Shown here one piece after another: positions 9,617-23,798 of a DNA stretch of 37,719 bases (the first letter of the stretch is position 1; each line of letters opens with the position of its first letter). The notes under the pieces were generated by a model. The model had not been told where the DNA came from and did not search any database. It saw only the letters and a list, made by a program, of their open reading frames with translations. The stretch spans positions 1 to 37,719 of the forward strand of contig JAQUNZ010000018.1 in the NCBI GenBank assembly GCA_028717345.1, read 5' to 3'. This stretch comes from Candidatus Methanoperedens sp. (GTDB lineage Archaea > Halobacteriota > Methanosarcinia > Methanosarcinales > Methanoperedenaceae). The translations under genes were made by a program, and so were the position numbers.

Positions 9617-9725
9617 TGCCCAGGACGGGATCCGAACCCGTGACCTCCAGATTTCTCAGGAAGCTAAGCGCCTCATCAAAATATCCCTATGAGTCTGGCG
9701 CCCTAACCAACTAGGCCACCTGGGC
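9617..9725 (-). tRNA. Elongator-type tRNA-Met(CAU) with a 35-nt intron at 37/38
   Basis: Minus-strand acceptor GCCCAGG/CCTGGGC, T arm ACGGG-TTCGGAT-CCCGT, anticodon stem CCAGA/TCTGG. The intron (about 9653-9687) removes to give the loop CTCATAA. CTCA/TGAG central helix flanked by TAG and AAA bulges fits a BHB. Confidence 0.88.
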
Positions 9726-9787: not shown

Positions 9788-9862
9788 TAGCGGGGCATGG
9801 ATTCGAACCATGGATCTACGGGTTATGAGCCCGTCGGGATTTCCTGACTACCCTACCCCGCT
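9788..9862 (-). tRNA. Initiator tRNA-Met(CAU)
   Basis: AGCGGGG...CCCCGCT+A (A1:U72), anticodon stem ACGGG-CTCATAA-CCCGT with three G:C pairs, T arm CATGG-TTCGAAT-CCATG. Confidence 0.9.
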
Positions 9863-16153: not shown

Positions 16154-16738
16154 TCAAGTTCTCTTTGAAGCAAGGAGGACGATCAGCTGTTCATACATAT
16201 ACTTAGCATGTCGTTCCTCTTCCACAGAATAGCCAAGATCAAGAATTCTTGACTTGATCTCATCCACCCCCGAAAGCGATGATACAAGCATCAATATTTT
16301 CCCACCCTCTGCAAGACAATTTCCTGCATCTTCGAGAAACCGGAATATCACCTGTCTTCCATCGCTTCCTCCATCAAGCGCAGCATTCAGCCATCCCTTT
16401 TGCCTCTCTCTATCTTCTGTTGGAAGGTATGGGGGATTAAAAATAATGAGATCAAAACGCCCTTTAATACAACTTAACATATCTCCTCTTATCGCTTCCA
16501 CTCCATTTTCCTTCGTGCACTTAACAGCATGAGGATTAATATCAATGCCTGTGACACTTGCATTTGTACTGGCATTAATAACAGCAGATATTATTCCGCT
16601 TCCGCATCCTGCTTCCAGTATATGTTCGAATCCATTTATATTTGATAAGGCTGCGTCAGCAAGTAAAAAAGAATCTTCAGAAGGCTCATAAACATGTTCT
16701 GATATGTTTATTAAAGCCTTCTTATACTGAATTCTCAT
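16154..16738 (-). CDS. HemK2/Mtq2-like release-factor glutamine methyltransferase
   Basis: YEPSEDSFLLADA, EAGCGSGIISAV, FDLIIFNPPYLP (NPPY motif). Confidence 0.85.
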   Translation of the reverse strand: MRIQYKKALINISEHVYEPSEDSFLLADAALSNINGFEHILEAGCGSGIISAVINASTNASVTGIDINPHAVKCTKENGVEAIRGDMLSCIKGRFDLIIFNPPYLPTEDRERQKGWLNAALDGGSDGRQVIFRFLEDAGNCLAEGGKILMLVSSLSGVDEIKSRILDLGYSVEEERHAKYMYEQLIVLLASKRT

Positions 16739-17832
16739 TATATTTTCTTTCTGCCAGTAACGATCTCAGCATGACAGTCAGAGCAGAATTTGGGCTGATG
16801 ACAGTCACTGCAAACCTTTCCAATTAATACCTCTTTCTTATGCGTGGTCAGCCAGTCTTTCGGATGCTCATTGCTGTGGCACGTTGCACACAAATTCGGT
16901 TTGATCTTCGGTTCATGTTTCACATTCGAGTGGCATTGATAACAGGCTATCTTGTTGTTGGTGACATGGTTCTTATGCACGAAATCAAAGTCATCGTATT
17001 TATCCACTCTTTCCCTGACATTATGGCATGAATAACACTTGTTCTTAGGTACAATGTCACTTGCGCCGGTTGACAGCTCTGTATGGCAGGTCAGGCAATC
17101 ATACCCGCGATCTATATGGGTGGTGTGGTTAAAGTTAGTATAATTCTTGTGGGTCTGTTTTGGCGGTCCGTGGCATGAAGGACATCCTGATATGGATGTA
17201 TTCCCTTTTACATCCCTGAAGTGGCATGTAAAACATGTTGCAGTTGTTACAACAATATGCCCTATGTCGCTCTGAACTATGTTCGGATGGCACTGGCTGC
17301 ACGATGGGTCTGTGACCGATCTGTGTTCACTCATACCTATGACAAGCATGGAATGGCAGCTTGTGCACGTCAATCCGATACCTCTCTTGGGTTCAAGCAG
17401 ATGGTTCTTATGGGTAAAATTTACGCCCAGATATTGAATACTTGATGAAAATATTCTTTGTTCGTGACATAAAAGGCAATTCTTATCCATGACCCTGGCG
17501 TACAAATTACCGGAATATTCCTCAACTGTGGTCTCATAGCTATAAAATTGCATAAGTCCGTTTATTTTTCCTTTGATATGTCCGACCAACCCGGGTTCGT
17601 AATGACATTCAACACAGCGGACATCACTATGAGAGGATGTTTTCCACGAATCATAATATGGTCTCATTATATGGCAGTTTTTTCCGCAGAATGCCGGATT
17701 TTCGCTGATATCAAGCACCTTTTCAGTTATAACGACTGAAGCCAGGATCAGCACAATAAAGACGATCGCCAGGGGGACTTTATACCTGTGTAACCAGCTC
17801 TTAACAGCTGCTTTAAGTGATATTTTATCCAC
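16738..17832 (-). CDS. Membrane-anchored NapC/NrfH-like multiheme cytochrome c (12 CXXCH + 1 CX3CH)
   Basis: N-terminal TM, FCGKNCHIMRPYYDSW, then CVECH, CLLCH, CTSCH, CSQCH, CFTCH, CPSCH, CLTCH, CYSCH, CYQCH, CATCH, CSDCH, CSDCH. Confidence 0.92.
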   Translation of the reverse strand: MDKISLKAAVKSWLHRYKVPLAIVFIVLILASVVITEKVLDISENPAFCGKNCHIMRPYYDSWKTSSHSDVRCVECHYEPGLVGHIKGKINGLMQFYSYETTVEEYSGNLYARVMDKNCLLCHEQRIFSSSIQYLGVNFTHKNHLLEPKRGIGLTCTSCHSMLVIGMSEHRSVTDPSCSQCHPNIVQSDIGHIVVTTATCFTCHFRDVKGNTSISGCPSCHGPPKQTHKNYTNFNHTTHIDRGYDCLTCHTELSTGASDIVPKNKCYSCHNVRERVDKYDDFDFVHKNHVTNNKIACYQCHSNVKHEPKIKPNLCATCHSNEHPKDWLTTHKKEVLIGKVCSDCHQPKFCSDCHAEIVTGRKKI

Positions 17833-17840
17833 TGTATCAC

Positions 17841-18803
17841 CTACCTTTTTCTCATCAGGTATATTATTGCAAGTATTGCAAATATCAGAACGATCCCAAC
17901 TCCAGGCACATTATTTTCAGTGGTTTCAACCTGTGAGGTCGCATGTTCTGATTTTTTAGCCCAATCGATACCGCTCTGAATTTGCTTATCAAAATCTTTC
18001 AGGTTGAATTGATGCCATAATGATGGGATACTATCCATTACAGCCTGAGCTTTATCAAGATCGATTTGTTCTGAAGTTACATCATTTCCTGAAGCCTTTG
18101 CATGAGAAAGTGACAGCTTTGCCTTCAGGAGCTCATCCTGAAATTCCTTCTGTTTATCAAGCGCAAGCTTTGCTTCCTTTGGAACGTTCGCTATTGCAAT
18201 ATTGTCTTTCTGATTATGACATACGCTGCAAAGAGCTGTAAGTTCTGATGCTTTCAGTACCTTGAATGTATGAGTCTTGTGGCATGTGATACAGGAAGGA
18301 GCTCTGGATTCTGCTTTTAATCTCTGGTAATGCATTGTGTTCTTGAAATGCTCCATTTCCTCTGCATGGCATTTCCCGCATGTGTCAGGGATATTCTTGA
18401 AATAAATAGTACTGTTCACATCATTTTTTCCTTTCATTGACGCATGGGATGTTACTTCATCACTTGCGTCAGGATTTCCACCGTGGCAATCATCGCAGGT
18501 TACATAATATTTGGAATGGTCTGACTCTGACCACTGCTGGAAATTGTCAGATGCTGTTTTTCTAATAACATCTTCATGGCATTCTAAAGAACACGATATA
18601 TTTTTTAGTGTGTGGTTCAATCGTATTTCGTTCAACCTTGTTTGTTCTTCAGTAAAAGGAGATATTATCTTGTGGCAGTCCACACAGGAATTATTTAAAG
18701 AAATTGAACTTGCCCCGGCACTGAACGCAAACAATATCAATATTAAGCAGCTAAATGACGATCTAATAAAAAGCATTTTTTGTTTCGTTGTTTTTAAAAG
18801 CAT
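17841..18803 (-). CDS. Secreted multiheme cytochrome c (5 CXXCH + 1 CX3CH), C-terminal anchor
   Basis: CVDCH, CSLECH, CDDCH, CGKCH, CITCH, CSVCH; C-terminus NNVPGVGIVLIFAILAIIYLMRKR resembles a PGF-CTERM. Confidence 0.9.
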   Translation of the reverse strand: MLLKTTKQKMLFIRSSFSCLILILFAFSAGASSISLNNSCVDCHKIISPFTEEQTRLNEIRLNHTLKNISCSLECHEDVIRKTASDNFQQWSESDHSKYYVTCDDCHGGNPDASDEVTSHASMKGKNDVNSTIYFKNIPDTCGKCHAEEMEHFKNTMHYQRLKAESRAPSCITCHKTHTFKVLKASELTALCSVCHNQKDNIAIANVPKEAKLALDKQKEFQDELLKAKLSLSHAKASGNDVTSEQIDLDKAQAVMDSIPSLWHQFNLKDFDKQIQSGIDWAKKSEHATSQVETTENNVPGVGIVLIFAILAIIYLMRKR

Positions 18804-18991
18804 TTTTGGGTTCCACCGTTTTGTGATTTAAATATTACATATTGAATTATATATTTCATGACTTATCCGATCAACAAGCCAGAACATGGTACCCGTTTTT
18901 TATTCTGGGATGTAGCAATATTCCATGATTTGATAGAATAAATACCTTGCGTTTAAATTAATCCAATTAAAAATATATAAAAACAAGAAAA

Positions 18992-20164
18992 TTAGTCTAT
19001 ATCTTCATCCATATCCTTCCACGGAGGAAGTATATAAGTTAAGACCAGGAGTATAATGAAGGGGATCGTGAGTATTATTATCGCTGGCAGCACGCCTTCC
19101 TGGCTGAAGAACACAGGAACATATGTATTTGTACCGCTCAAGCTCTTTGATATCTCCTGTCCTCCGATCACGACATTCCAGCGCATCGCAAATACGCCAA
19201 TGACTACAAAGATAGAAGATACAGCGATCATAAGGGTTTTCAGTTGTTCCCGGTTCTTCATGACCATTACAAGAATAAGAAGCACGAACGGGATGAATAT
19301 CCCCATGGTTAGCTGAACACCATAGAATGTAGTAGCGATCTTTTCTGATAGCAGCCTGTCGATTATTTCGATCTCTTCAAGAGACTCGTATTTCATGCTA
19401 ATTATTTCAAGCAGTTCAAGCGCCACGTCAAGTATCAGGAATACCCACAGATAATGAGCAAGTGAGAAAAGTGTTTCATAGTTCAGCACTTTCTTCCTTA
19501 ATTTTGATGCCGCGATATAGAGGAGTATCAAAAGAGCTATTCCTGACACGATCGCTGACATAAGGAATATTATAGGCATAAGAGGCGTGGACCACCAGGG
19601 ATTTGCCTTGATGCCGCCAAAAATGAACCCGACATAACCATGCAGGAACGCCGCTGACGGGATACCTATTATGGCAAGTTTCTTTGCCAGTTTTTCGTCG
19701 TCATGCAGGGCTTTCCCGGATATGTCGTATGAATAAAGAGCCAGAGCCGAATACATTTGTTTTTTCCATCCTTTGCATTTCAGGGCGTTCTTTACAATAT
19801 CTTCCCTGAACGACAGCCATATTTCAAGCACTACAACGATAAGATAAAATGAATATATGTATCCAAATCCAGACATTGCTGACGTGAGATGAGGCGTGAA
19901 CATGATCTCAATACCTCTCTCAGGATGTCCAAGATGCGTTAGAAGCGGCATAGTGGCAACAAGCAGGAAAGAAAGGGCTGTAAGAAGAGCGAACCTCGCA
20001 ACTGGTTTTATCTCCCGCTTCCCGAAAACATGATACAGTGATGATGCTATGAAGGCTCCTGCAACAAGACCCGTGATATACGGATATAATACGATCAATA
20101 CGCTCCACTGAATTTCTATTTCATTGGGGTAAATGTATCCCCATACAAGATTTTCTACTGCCAT
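18992..20164 (-). CDS. NrfD/PsrC-like polytopic membrane subunit
   Basis: Many TMs (LYPYITGLVAGAFIASSLYHVFG, LLTHLGHPERGIEIMFTPHLTSAMSGFGYIYSFYLIVVVLEIWL); adjacent to the 4Fe-4S subunit. Confidence 0.85.
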   Translation of the reverse strand: MAVENLVWGYIYPNEIEIQWSVLIVLYPYITGLVAGAFIASSLYHVFGKREIKPVARFALLTALSFLLVATMPLLTHLGHPERGIEIMFTPHLTSAMSGFGYIYSFYLIVVVLEIWLSFREDIVKNALKCKGWKKQMYSALALYSYDISGKALHDDEKLAKKLAIIGIPSAAFLHGYVGFIFGGIKANPWWSTPLMPIIFLMSAIVSGIALLILLYIAASKLRKKVLNYETLFSLAHYLWVFLILDVALELLEIISMKYESLEEIEIIDRLLSEKIATTFYGVQLTMGIFIPFVLLILVMVMKNREQLKTLMIAVSSIFVVIGVFAMRWNVVIGGQEISKSLSGTNTYVPVFFSQEGVLPAIIILTIPFIILLVLTYILPPWKDMDEDID

Positions 20165-20943
20165 TATCTCACTTCCCTGTCAAGCCCGACATAGTAAACT
20201 TTTGGTTTTGTTCCAAGGTCTGCTTTCAGGACATTTATCCGTTCTTTATCAAGTATCTTATTTATCTCGCTTTCAGGATCTTTCAGGTCGCCGAATTTCC
20301 TTGCCCCGACCGGGCATGCCTGGACACATGCGGGCAGCAAACCTTTTGTGATCCTGTGATAGCACCATGTACATTTATCAGCAGTCCTCTTTTCATTATT
20401 GAAATACCGTGCGCCGTAAGGGCAGCCCTGGATGCAATACCTGCACCCTATGCAATAATTATAATCAACAAGGATCACGCCGTCTTCGGTCTTGTATGTG
20501 GCTCCAACCGGACACACCTGCACACAGGGGGGATTGTCGCAGTGATTACATATCTTGGGGACATAAAATGCTTTTTTGATCTCTTCTGCCGGAATATCTT
20601 CTGCAAATCCCTTGATGCCGCCATCAGGGGAATCGATTTTTACACTCTCTTCTGTTCCTTCTCTTACTATCCTGTATCTTTCGATCCATGTCCTGTAAAC
20701 CGGTTCATCAAATGGGACTTCATTCTCAAGTTTGCATGCATTTGCACATCTTCCGCACCCTATGCATTTGCGGGTATCGACAACGTATCCCCATAAATGC
20801 TCGTTCCAGTCGTATTCTTTATTTGACGATTCTTCCTGAGCTACACCCAGAGTGGCTATGGATTCAACGATAGTTGCACCAGCAGCTGCTCCAATAATGA
20901 TCCTGCATCCGAACTTAGTAAATTCTCGTCTTGATAAATCCAT
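20164..20943 (-). CDS. TAT-exported 4x[4Fe-4S] ferredoxin subunit (NrfC/DsrO/PsrB-like)
   Basis: SRREFTKFG twin-arginine signal; CIGCGRCANACK, CNHCDNPPCVQVCP, CIGCRYCIQGCP, CTWCYHRI...CVQACP. Confidence 0.92.
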   Translation of the reverse strand: MDLSRREFTKFGCRIIIGAAAGATIVESIATLGVAQEESSNKEYDWNEHLWGYVVDTRKCIGCGRCANACKLENEVPFDEPVYRTWIERYRIVREGTEESVKIDSPDGGIKGFAEDIPAEEIKKAFYVPKICNHCDNPPCVQVCPVGATYKTEDGVILVDYNYCIGCRYCIQGCPYGARYFNNEKRTADKCTWCYHRITKGLLPACVQACPVGARKFGDLKDPESEINKILDKERINVLKADLGTKPKVYYVGLDREVR

Positions 20944-20955
20944 AATTATACCTCT

Positions 20956-21411
20956 TTATAAAAACCACGGCTTATGCGGGTTATGGCAATATGCGCATTT
21001 CAGGTTCTCACCGTGTGTTTCAGGATCGATCTGCGGGAAATCAGCAGGTCTTGCTGCGCGTTTAAAGTGACACAATCCGCAGAACTCTCTTGTATCGTTT
21101 GCCGGTTCTGGCATGACCCTGGTATCAATTACATGTTTTTCCGACGGACCATGGCATGTTTCACAGTTCACTGTCTTGTGTCTTGAATCGACCCATATGG
21201 AATACGTTGTTTTATGGCATTCATTGTTGATGCCACTGCAACTTGCAGAGCCGGCATATCCTACAGGTATATCCCTGAGCTCGGCAACGGAATCACCCCT
21301 GTACCACCCATACTGCCCGAAAGACTCGGGGACAATAAATGAGCGGACAAAGAGAAAACCGATAATAACTAAAACCAGTATAATAAATGCTCTTTTCAAG
21401 TGCGGCTGCAT
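20956..21411 (-). CDS. Small multiheme cytochrome c (3 CXXCH + CX6CH)
   Basis: N-terminal TM; CSGINNECH, CETCH, CGLCH, CAYCH. Confidence 0.85.
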   Translation of the reverse strand: MQPHLKRAFIILVLVIIGFLFVRSFIVPESFGQYGWYRGDSVAELRDIPVGYAGSASCSGINNECHKTTYSIWVDSRHKTVNCETCHGPSEKHVIDTRVMPEPANDTREFCGLCHFKRAARPADFPQIDPETHGENLKCAYCHNPHKPWFL

Positions 21412-21445
21412 TCTTATTCACCTGTTGACCAGAATATCCTTATCA

Positions 21446-22426
21446 TCATTCCCTATTTTTTCTAATAAGGAGAAGTACTGCAGCAATCGAAATAAGCATC
21501 AAGATACCGGTAAATCCCGGAGTTTCTTTTGCATTTGTTTTTCCTGGTGTCGTAGCAGCAGTCGGCTTTACAATATTTTCTGCCTTCTTTATCTCGGCAT
21601 TACCTTTATCCAGCTCGGTTTCAAAATGAGTGAGATTGAATTCATGCCACAGGACTGCAAGGTTGCTGAGTGTTCCAAGTGCGTTATCTGCATGCTTCTG
21701 TGCCTGGGAAACGTCTGTTCCATTCTTCTTTGCTAAGAATATGTCATTGTTCGCCATATCAATATTGAACTTCAGTTTATTCACGCCACCCATCAAATAC
21801 TCAGCTTTGACCGGGATATCATATGGTGCGACTTTTTTATAAACTGAATGGCAGTTCCCGCAGAAATTCCTGAACTCTTCTGGATCAAGTACTGTGAACC
21901 TGTGCGGTGCATGGCATGTGGTGCATGTTGGAGCAAGTTTAAGAGCTTCAAGTTTCTGGTAATGTTTACTGCTCTGGAAATTCTGCAATTCTTTGGAGTG
22001 GCATTTCCCGCATGTAGCCGGGACATTGGTATAATAAACAGGGCTTTCAACGTTAGTTCGTTCGACAATGGATTTATGCGCCCCTTCTTTATCTGCTGCC
22101 TTTGGTTCTCCGCCGTGGCAATTTTCGCATGTAATACCTTTCAAAGCGTGTACCGATTCGGACCACTGCTGATAATTTGCTGTAGCAAGCTGTCTTACCC
22201 GGTCTTCATGGCATTCAAGAGAGCATGACACGTTCTTTTCCAGATGCTCAACCCGGATCTGGTTGAACTGTTTCTGGATCTCGATAAAAGGAGAAATAGT
22301 TTTATGACAATCGATACATGAGTTATCGGATGCTGTCACATTCGGAACAAAAAGTAAAGAAATACCGATTAGTAATATAAATATACCTGATCTTTTATAC
22401 ATTTTTCCTACCTGCTTTTTTTGCAT
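21446..22426 (-). CDS. Secreted multiheme cytochrome c (5 CXXCH + 1 CX3CH) with PGF-CTERM
   Basis: CIDCH, CSLECH, CENCH, CGKCH, CTTCH, CGNCH; C-terminus ETPGFTGILMLISIAAVLLLIRKNRE. Paralog of 17841-18803. Confidence 0.92.
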   Translation of the reverse strand: MQKKQVGKMYKRSGIFILLIGISLLFVPNVTASDNSCIDCHKTISPFIEIQKQFNQIRVEHLEKNVSCSLECHEDRVRQLATANYQQWSESVHALKGITCENCHGGEPKAADKEGAHKSIVERTNVESPVYYTNVPATCGKCHSKELQNFQSSKHYQKLEALKLAPTCTTCHAPHRFTVLDPEEFRNFCGNCHSVYKKVAPYDIPVKAEYLMGGVNKLKFNIDMANNDIFLAKKNGTDVSQAQKHADNALGTLSNLAVLWHEFNLTHFETELDKGNAEIKKAENIVKPTAATTPGKTNAKETPGFTGILMLISIAAVLLLIRKNRE

Positions 22427-22571
22427 ACTGTTTTTTATGCGGTTGACGTTTTTATACTTATGCGTTTTTTGAGTTCACAAATCTTTTATTTTGTATAAAT
22501 AGCTTTTGGTTTTAAAACCGTGGAATTTCTTAGAGAGATTTATTATCATTGCTGAACATAAAAATCCATTA

Positions 22572-23798
22572 ATGCACAACGATGAAAAAAAGGAGATGAA
22601 ATGGATATACGAAATAATCGTGGGGAGCATACCCCCGTTCTCTCTTCTTCCTTACAGGTACAGCATCCTGCTGCAGCTTCTGCTTCTTCTTGTCATCGGT
22701 CTTATTCTCGGTTTCATATTCGATCTGAAACCCATTTCTCTGATATACGGTTCACTCGGAATACTGGTAGCGGTCTCCTGGAGCCTGCTGATACTTCAGC
22801 TCGGCCCTACCCTGCGAAAATTCAGGGCGCCTCTTAGTAAAGATGAAAATGAACTGCTTGAGAGGTACAGGGGTATACTCTTTCACAGGAATCACTATGA
22901 AGCAGTACCAGGGATTCTTATTTTCATCACTTTCATGTCATATCTTTTTTATCTGAGCCCACAGCTTTTAGATTTCTGGCTAGGAAAATATCCTGATATC
23001 GTTCTGCTCTTATTTGTAAGTCTTCTCATCTGGGATATCTGCTACAGGATGGGGCTCGGGATATGGACATCTATCCTGGCTCTCTGGAGATCCATCAAAC
23101 TGAAAAAACTCGCAGAAAATAGAAGTGAACTTGAACATACTCCATATACTGAACTTAATTATCTTCGAAAGCTTGATATAAATAATGTCTTTTTCGGAAT
23201 GATATCCCTTCTTCTGATACCGATTATACAGCAGGACCGTGTTCTTGTTGCGATAATACTGGTATTTTTCATATTTATCATTTTGACGTCATTTGCCTCA
23301 GCATATATAGTCTCAAAAGTACCCTGGCTTCCGCCTGATATATACAATCTTGTAATGGAGTCCAGTTTCGCATATATAGGGAATGCGCTACATGGAACTA
23401 CGCACGTCACTCCTGTAGTATATATTTTCGATGGACAGAGGATATTTTTTAATACTTCAAAAGAGTCAAAGAAGTTAAAAATATTGCGAAAGAACAGTAA
23501 GGTCGCGTTCCTTATAGACACACGGGACATGAGCAACATATATGAGAACAAAGCTGTCTTGTTCACAGGCGAAGCAAAAATATACGGGCTTTCTGACATC
23601 CCACTTCGCTTTTTTCAGATGCTTGGCGCGCGTTCTCTATTTCTTAAGAAATATCCCGAATATACTAAAAAATATGCCACTTCGGATCTGCCAAAAGCAT
23701 GGCAGTTGACCCCGATAATCTCAAGGATACTTGTGGAAATAAAACCGGTCAGGATAATATACTGGAGAGGAGCAAAACAAATAAGTGTGCCGGTGTAA
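22572..23798 (+). CDS. Polytopic membrane protein fused to a C-terminal PNPOx-like (flavin/F420-binding split barrel) domain
   Basis: About six hydrophobic segments, then SSFAYIGNALHGTTHVTPVVYIFDGQRIFFNTSKESKKLKILRKNSKVAFLID...VRIIYWRG. The supplied ORF starts at 22506 (TTG). Confidence 0.7.
   Translation: MHNDEKKEMKWIYEIIVGSIPPFSLLPYRYSILLQLLLLLVIGLILGFIFDLKPISLIYGSLGILVAVSWSLLILQLGPTLRKFRAPLSKDENELLERYRGILFHRNHYEAVPGILIFITFMSYLFYLSPQLLDFWLGKYPDIVLLLFVSLLIWDICYRMGLGIWTSILALWRSIKLKKLAENRSELEHTPYTELNYLRKLDINNVFFGMISLLLIPIIQQDRVLVAIILVFFIFIILTSFASAYIVSKVPWLPPDIYNLVMESSFAYIGNALHGTTHVTPVVYIFDGQRIFFNTSKESKKLKILRKNSKVAFLIDTRDMSNIYENKAVLFTGEAKIYGLSDIPLRFFQMLGARSLFLKKYPEYTKKYATSDLPKAWQLTPIISRILVEIKPVRIIYWRGAKQISVPV

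Follow-up and report, generated by a model that had tools for sequence, protein, structure and literature searches.

Two probably separate electron-export units in a conserved cytochrome gene cluster of Candidatus Methanoperedens

Introduction

Where archaea oxidise methane with nitrate, metals or electrodes, the step by which electrons exit the membrane is still open. In Leu et al. 2020 (PMC7327174, PMC7082337), operons that combine NrfD and a 4Fe-4S protein with 3-/6-heme cytochromes are described as menaquinol:cytochrome c oxidoreductases. As far as the accessible parts of these articles describe them, these operons belong to the same family as the cluster analysed here and share its gene content and proposed role. 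The cluster is treated there as one group, and its separability, a private leader and a doubtful quinol site in the 13-heme cytochrome were not found in those parts. In Table 2 of Arshad et al. 2015 (PMC4683180), each of the four cytochromes is represented by orthologues (ANME2D_00599/00600/00603/00604; MPEBLZ_03194/03195/04299/04300) with RPKM values of 767-1073 under nitrate, and all four are among the 23 most expressed cytochromes. The genes are given as single cytochromes only, not as a complex, and our orthologue match rests on the motif pattern (5 + CX3CH, 3 + CX4CH, 5, and 12 + CX3CH) and on the numbering, which fits the six-gene order. Given these operons and this cytochrome list, the cluster is not new but previously described. 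No biochemistry on any of these proteins was found in the literature.

The NrfBCD module of E. coli NrfABCD likewise combines NrfD, a 4x[4Fe-4S] protein and a multiheme cytochrome and passes electrons from quinol outward. The electrode-induced cluster Metp_01713-01722 (Ouboter et al. 2024, PMC10874420) also encodes NrfD-like, 4x[4Fe-4S] and multiheme cytochrome proteins, but it contains two 7-heme cytochromes and an Fdh-like cytochrome b and is a different cluster from the one in the window. Iron-reducing Archaeoglobi, among them the Fe(III) reducer Geoglobus ahangari, have a tetraheme-FeS-NrfD core beside NapC-like cytochromes with 10-12 hemes. The G. ahangari genes GAH_01253..GAH_01256 (PMC4600277) form one tight operon for a tetraheme cytochrome, FeS protein, NrfD and NapC/NirT-like 10-heme cytochrome; this operon lacks the hexahemes, and its NrfD shows 34% identity. 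Another locus in this genome encodes an NrfD with 52% identity together with a 12-heme cytochrome.

Results

The window, meaning the whole stretch of 37,719 nt that was analysed, represents one contig from a MAG of Ca. Methanoperedens (genome completeness 95.9%), in line with the host named in an initial annotation made from the letters alone. The six ORFs proposed there were all found on the minus strand and in the given order, and a recount reproduced the 29 heme motifs (6+4+6+13), which consist of 25 CX2CH, 3 CX3CH and one CX6CH. A motif scan of the window found no ORF with two or more CXXCH outside the cluster. The features are as follows.

21446..22426, minus strand: cyt6a, hexaheme c-type cytochrome of unit I (5 CX2CH + 1 CX3CH)
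20956..21411, minus strand: cyt3, membrane-anchored small tetraheme cytochrome of unit I (3 CX2CH + CX6CH; Pfam Cytochrome_C7/C554)
20164..20943, minus strand: FeS, TAT-exported 4x[4Fe-4S] NrfC/PsrB-like protein of unit I (TAT motif and 4Fe-4S sites)
18992..20164, minus strand: NrfD, heme-free membrane subunit of unit I (PF03916, 155.4 bits, cut-off 25.8)
18874..18959, minus strand: promoter/leader of unit II (a TATA-like box, the conserved sequence ATCATCA and an inverted repeat around AAAAACGGG)
17841..18803, minus strand: cyt6b, hexaheme cytochrome of unit II (5 CX2CH + 1 CX3CH)
16738..17832, minus strand: cyt13, 13-heme cytochrome of unit II (12 CX2CH + 1 CX3CH; matches TIGR03153 and 2j7a_C)
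16154..16738, minus strand: HemK2/MTQ2-type methyltransferase (TIGR00537, 159 bits)

The cluster genes were 46-94% identical to their counterparts in about 30 relatives, which rules out chance. Synteny was conserved, with all six genes adjoining each other in 21 of 30 genomes; units I and II were found together almost without exception, and the cluster was kept in metal-reducing lineages. As the initial annotation had supposed, no catalytic subunit was linked: neither the cluster nor the flanks examined held a Mo-pterin subunit of the kind that defines CISM respiratory enzymes. The genome contained only three Mo-pterin matches, all on other contigs and the largest formate dehydrogenase-like, and thus no nitrate reductase was seen. 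The menaquinone gene mqnC scored over its cut-off. The set is real and family-wide, and methane-oxidising Methanoperedens probably pass electrons through it from the membrane to surface cytochromes.

The genes for cyt6a, cyt3, FeS and NrfD formed a fixed block that was unbroken in relatives wherever the contig allowed, and the NrfD and FeS genes shared a 1 nt overlap. As a heme-free multi-TM subunit with a PF03916 match and an NrfC/PsrB-type FeS partner, NrfD falls within the NrfD/PsrC family, and its position adjoining a 4Fe-4S protein and 3-/6-heme cytochromes is that of the Methanoperedenaceae NrfD-type menaquinone:cytochrome c oxidoreductases. The nearest solved structures were ActC of alternative complex III (6f0k_C/6lod_C). 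Quinol-site residues His77, Ser95 and His175 and the gate Arg328 were invariant in 25 of 25 family members, so that the equivalents of ActC His139, Ser164, His247 and Arg395 are kept; in contrast, two quinol-site aspartates of ActC, Asp169 and Asp253, are not kept. The menaquinol-to-cytochrome wiring put forward initially is supported by these residues. The ActB/QrcB-like large subunit of alternative complex III and Qrc is absent from the cluster. NrfA of the E. coli-type NrfABCD system is also absent, and the equivalog scores for that system were 56.1 for NrfD (cut-off 347.6) and 167.7 for NrfC (cut-off 377.6).

The FeS protein scored 102.5 bits with Fer4_11, and its nearest solved structure was PsrB (2vpw_B, E 3e-48). 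Tyr169, within a CRYC motif, was invariant in the family and matches QrcC Tyr113, which is essential in Qrc. A DsrMKJOP/DsrJOP assignment was considered and rejected: the FeS protein reached 212 bits with the DsrO model (above 200), but NrfD scored only 42.8 against 350 for DsrP, and there was no DsrJ match. The CX6CH of cyt3 is a CX4CH widened by a 2-residue insert, which the window shares with its nearest relative; CX4CH stands at this position in 22 of 24 aligned orthologues.

The orthologues of cyt6a formed a group of their own in the tree (86/97), and cyt6b likewise had a separate group. The tree supported the earlier view that the two hexahemes are paralogues, with cyt6b an ancient paralogue of cyt6a that lies nearer to Rieske/cyt b-linked hexahemes, and a recent flanking duplication was rejected on these grounds. 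Cyt6a starts with a signal peptide and ends with PGF, a TM helix and a basic tail, resembling PGF-CTERM. By eye the C-terminal tails read PGFTG in cyt6a and PGVG in cyt6b; the PGF-CTERM-type tail model gave no match, and archaeosortase A (ArtA) was over the cut-off at two loci in the genome. Both hexahemes may be anchored at the surface. AlphaFold models of cyt6a (pLDDT 64.7, pTM 0.39, confident only in the C-terminal helices) and cyt13 (pLDDT 37.5) were too poor for use.

In 9 of 30 genomes unit II was found at unrelated loci away from unit I, and cyt6b and cyt13 were present as a pair in all nine. The promoter/leader ahead of cyt6b was conserved in an alignment of 24 sequences, and a genome-wide model search found one strong copy per genome. 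Its inverted repeat scored 14.7 compared to 10.3 for shuffled arms. Cross-pairing the arms of different genomes gave almost as much (14.1), and covariation is therefore not demonstrated. RNAalifold predicted no stable fold in the leader, and an Rfam scan found two tRNAs only, so the leader is no known riboswitch.

The description of cyt13 as NapC/NrfH-like held in part. It has an N-terminal TM helix and an NrfH-like N-terminus and matches 2j7a_C, and the equivalents of NrfH Lys82 (Lys89) and of the heme-1 Met49 (Met56) were invariant. However, the NrfH model TIGR03153 gave 69.5 bits, far below its cut-off of 134.2, a search for the NapC/NirT Pfam PF03264 gave no match, and NrfH Asp89 was replaced by Gln95, with Gln in every member. 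The NapC-like partners in Archaeoglobi kept neither NrfH Lys82 nor Asp89. A second quinone module in cyt13 is thus doubtful.

Discussion

We consider it probable that the cluster consists of two neighbouring, separately transcribed electron-export units: a menaquinol:cytochrome c oxidoreductase (unit I), and a 13-heme relay with a hexaheme (unit II). Menaquinol would be bound by NrfD close to the membrane's outer face, and electrons would pass through the four [4Fe-4S] clusters of the exported FeS protein to the tetraheme cyt3 and on to the putatively surface-anchored cyt6a. In unit II, membrane-tethered cyt13 would work with its own hexaheme, cyt6b; its source would most likely be unit I or the quinol pool, from which electrons would be carried outward. 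The set includes no substrate reductase, and acceptors would be reached via other multiheme cytochromes.

The initial annotation proposed a single six-subunit complex in which menaquinol is oxidised by NrfD as well as by a NapC-type subunit, with a surface cytochrome on either side. Its family-wide co-occurrence stood, with six adjacent genes in 21 of 30 genomes, and in Archaeoglobi NapC-like 10-12-heme genes lie directly behind NrfD; a physical partnership of both units would also fit these observations. Against one complex with two quinone modules, genes one to four behave as one unit and genes five and six as another, unit II being unlinked as a pair in nine genomes and having its own promoter/leader. 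In addition, Asp89 of NrfH is Gln in cyt13, and the Archaeoglobi partners keep neither Lys82 nor Asp89. We regard the single complex as unlikely. Within the two-unit explanation, unit II alone could be a complete CymA/NrfH-type menaquinol oxidase with an exit hexaheme, running in parallel with unit I but independently of it, and cyt13 possibly a second quinol oxidase. The separate locus and promoter and the invariant Lys89 and Met56 speak for it, but the Asp to Gln exchange throughout, the score under the NrfH cut-off and 13 hemes instead of 4 make it somewhat unlikely. Tentatively, it is possible that cyt13 is a quinol dehydrogenase turned relay, with a partly lost quinol site and fed by NrfD/FeS/tetraheme, in a two-part system common to Methanoperedens and the Archaeoglobi that reduce Fe(III). 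If so, a conserved leader of its own, acting as operator or RNA, could let the relay part be switched separately.

Electron direction is unreadable from sequence because the related Qrc works in the opposite direction. A role of unit I in electron uptake, as a cytochrome:menaquinone reductase of the Qrc type, would agree with the composition of Qrc and Nhc, which are likewise NrfD/FeS with multiheme cytochromes; we hold this to be very unlikely, as a QrcB-like subunit is absent and the family is known to export electrons. A function of the units with a periplasmic nitrate reductase rather than with extracellular acceptors is suggested by the high expression of the BLZ1 orthologues under nitrate, but it is quite improbable given the few Mo-pterin matches in a nearly complete genome and the retention of the cluster in metal-reducing lineages.

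If the cluster known from the literature comprises two units, of which one has a switch to itself, the gene sets to compare in transcriptomes would change. The Gln found in place of the NrfH Asp offers one testable residue for whether cyt13 touches quinol. The methyltransferase gene, which has one base in common with cyt13 and frequently accompanies unit II, being linked in many relatives, is probably a housekeeping passenger.

Cluster content and conservation

All six open reading frames of the cluster were present as the initial annotation had described them, in a window that constitutes an entire contig (G000:C18) of a 2.54-Mb MAG (completeness 95.9%), with Ca. Methanoperedens as its nearest relatives. 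Its 29 heme motifs were recounted as 25 CX2CH, 3 CX3CH and 1 CX6CH. The FeS protein carried 4Fe-4S sites along with a TAT motif, and the NrfD subunit matched PF03916 with 155 bits. The CX6CH motif, in the small cytochrome cyt3, was a CX4CH that had been widened; CX4CH stood at that place in 22 of the 24 orthologues aligned, so the reading of cyt3 as a tetraheme cytochrome is sound. Divergent from the cluster, a gene at 22506-23798 (plus strand) encoded DUF7530 fused with a pyridoxamine-phosphate-oxidase-like domain.

Of 30 further genomes in the genus, 27 encoded NrfD (81-92% identity), as did two of three from the rest of the family (78-80%). In the relatives compared, the block of the hexaheme cyt6a, cyt3, FeS and NrfD was unbroken wherever the contig was long enough, and of 23 other genus genomes tested, 22 had the 13-heme cyt13. 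An additional, orphan paralogue of cyt13 with 70% identity was located at G000:C53:4434-5522 (L072:4413-5546), near a 13-TM protein and cytochromes with 12 and 16 hemes, with like loci in G003, G008 and G021.

Two separable units

The proposal of a single six-gene machine was only partly supported; the cluster consisted of unit I (cyt6a-cyt3-FeS-NrfD) and unit II (the hexaheme cyt6b and cyt13). Among 30 genomes with NrfD, window included and one locus per genome, cyt6b lay within 1.2 kb downstream of NrfD in 21 and not in the other nine, all of which carried cyt6b and cyt13 elsewhere. Judging by neighbour names read from the sequence, the unlinked unit II adjoined, for example, ribosomal-protein-like genes in G008 and G012, and in G002 and G018 it was next to a DnaJ-like gene; in G006, G008 and G021 it lay deep within other long contigs. 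In the window, 188 bp separated the units, and genes within each were spaced by 8-34 bp or overlapped by one base. The unlinked state is probably derived, since the family's other genus (L129, L130) showed linkage too, as did Archaeoglobi.

A conserved leader was found before cyt6b:

18874-18959, minus strand: unit II leader, containing a conserved TATA-like box, a stretch of ATCATCA and an inverted repeat that surrounds AAAAACGGG

Within it, AAAAACGGG was almost invariant, and the leader preceded cyt6b in linked and unlinked genomes alike. When 22 genus genomes were searched with a sequence model of the leader, 21 showed a single strong copy, always at cyt6b, with all remaining matches weaker than E 1e-4. 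Thus, unit II has its own promoter. The leader is family-specific, would act as an operator or an RNA element, and matched no known Rfam family. AAAAACG(G) runs were also seen in the leaders of cyt6a, another hexaheme gene and the formate dehydrogenase-like gene, which may point to a leader feature of broader occurrence in the genus:

Window 22427-22510 (minus strand), and L008:5725, L064:5492 (minus strand) and L136:1119 in other loci: AAAAACG(G) runs

Candidate quinone modules

When NrfD was aligned to R. marinus ActC, ActC residues His139, Ser164, His247 and Arg395 corresponded to His77, Ser95, His175 and Arg328, which were invariant in 25 Methanoperedenaceae and nine nearer-type Archaeoglobi proteins; more distant paralogues also kept Ser95 and Arg328. 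Equivalents of ActC Asp169 and Asp253 were not kept. Judged by its position between two cluster cysteines, the invariant Tyr169 of the FeS protein matched Tyr113 of QrcC, a residue essential in Qrc. The menaquinone gene mqnC was present in the genome.

The N-terminus of cyt13 aligned with D. vulgaris NrfH (2j7a_C; E 4e-5), and NrfH Lys82 and the heme-1 residue Met49 corresponded to Lys89 and Met56, both invariant in 22 sequences. NrfH Asp89 is kept in the true NrfH of Methanoperedens (Arshad et al. 2015), and its position was Gln95 in every cyt13. The NrfH score of cyt13 was half of the cut-off, and the NapC/NirT Pfam model gave no match in cyt13. Archaeoglobi NapC-like cytochromes adjoining NrfD lacked both NrfH residues, in a loop where the alignment is uncertain. 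These observations make a relay role for cyt13 no less likely than quinol oxidation.

Wider kinship

Within the phylum, members of family f9 also carried tetraheme-FeS-NrfD cores in their genomes. In Geoglobus ahangari 234T (G097, locus L126), FeS, NrfD and a NapC-like gene with 10 hemes stood in tight order behind the tetraheme gene, an arrangement that fits GAH_01253 and GAH_01256. In a tree, the hexahemes formed two old groups, cyt6a (86/97) and cyt6b (100/99), and two more hexahemes, beside Rieske/cytochrome b-like genes (G000:C15), grouped with cyt6b. Thus, several quinol-oxidising modules of the genome each have a hexaheme of their own, with which they would be functionally paired. A bacterial FeS-NrfD pair with 52% and 48% identity to the unit I counterparts was located on an Eisenbacteria contig (L026), which suggests archaea-bacteria exchange.

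Relation to earlier reports

The cluster is real, conserved and previously known. An operon of NrfD-like and 4Fe-4S proteins with 3- and 6-heme cytochromes has been reported, with expression under methane oxidation coupled to Mn(IV) (Leu et al. 2020, ISME J), and five menaquinone:cytochrome c oxidoreductase types have been distinguished in the family, two being NrfD-based (Leu et al. 2020, mBio). BLZ1 orthologues of ANME2D_00599, 00600, 00603 and 00604 have 5, 3, 5 and 12 CXXCH motifs, with an extra CX3CH in the first and last and CX4CH in the second, and reached RPKM values of 1073, 767, 993 and 907 under nitrate (Arshad et al. 2015, PMC4683180). The ANME2D numbering matches the window gene order, leaving space for two heme-free genes between. 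Zhang et al. (2023) placed four cytochromes, 02260, 02261, 02264 and 02265, in a single oxidoreductase cluster that was highest under soluble iron; their numbering, again two-gap-two, suggests that it is the window cluster. New here are the separability of unit II with its private leader, the Gln in place of the NrfH Asp, and a core that iron-reducing Archaeoglobi share.

Genome context

Neither the cluster nor the flanks examined contained a Mo-pterin subunit. PF00384 had three matches in the genome, all on other contigs, the largest being formate dehydrogenase-like and the other two of formylmethanofuran dehydrogenase size. Nitrate reductase was not seen in the draft genome, which, within draft-genome limits, favours extracellular acceptors for this organism. 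The genome (95.9% complete) also had no match for McrA (PF02249, PF02745) or McrB (PF02241), and in G001 (95%) PF02745 and PF02241 likewise gave no match; such matches were present in most of the other genus members that are near-complete. The missing Mcr would reflect an assembly gap or an mcr-less lineage. Elsewhere in the window, a 109-base tRNA match at 9617-9725 (minus strand), which could hold an intron, adjoined a normal tRNA at 9788-9862.
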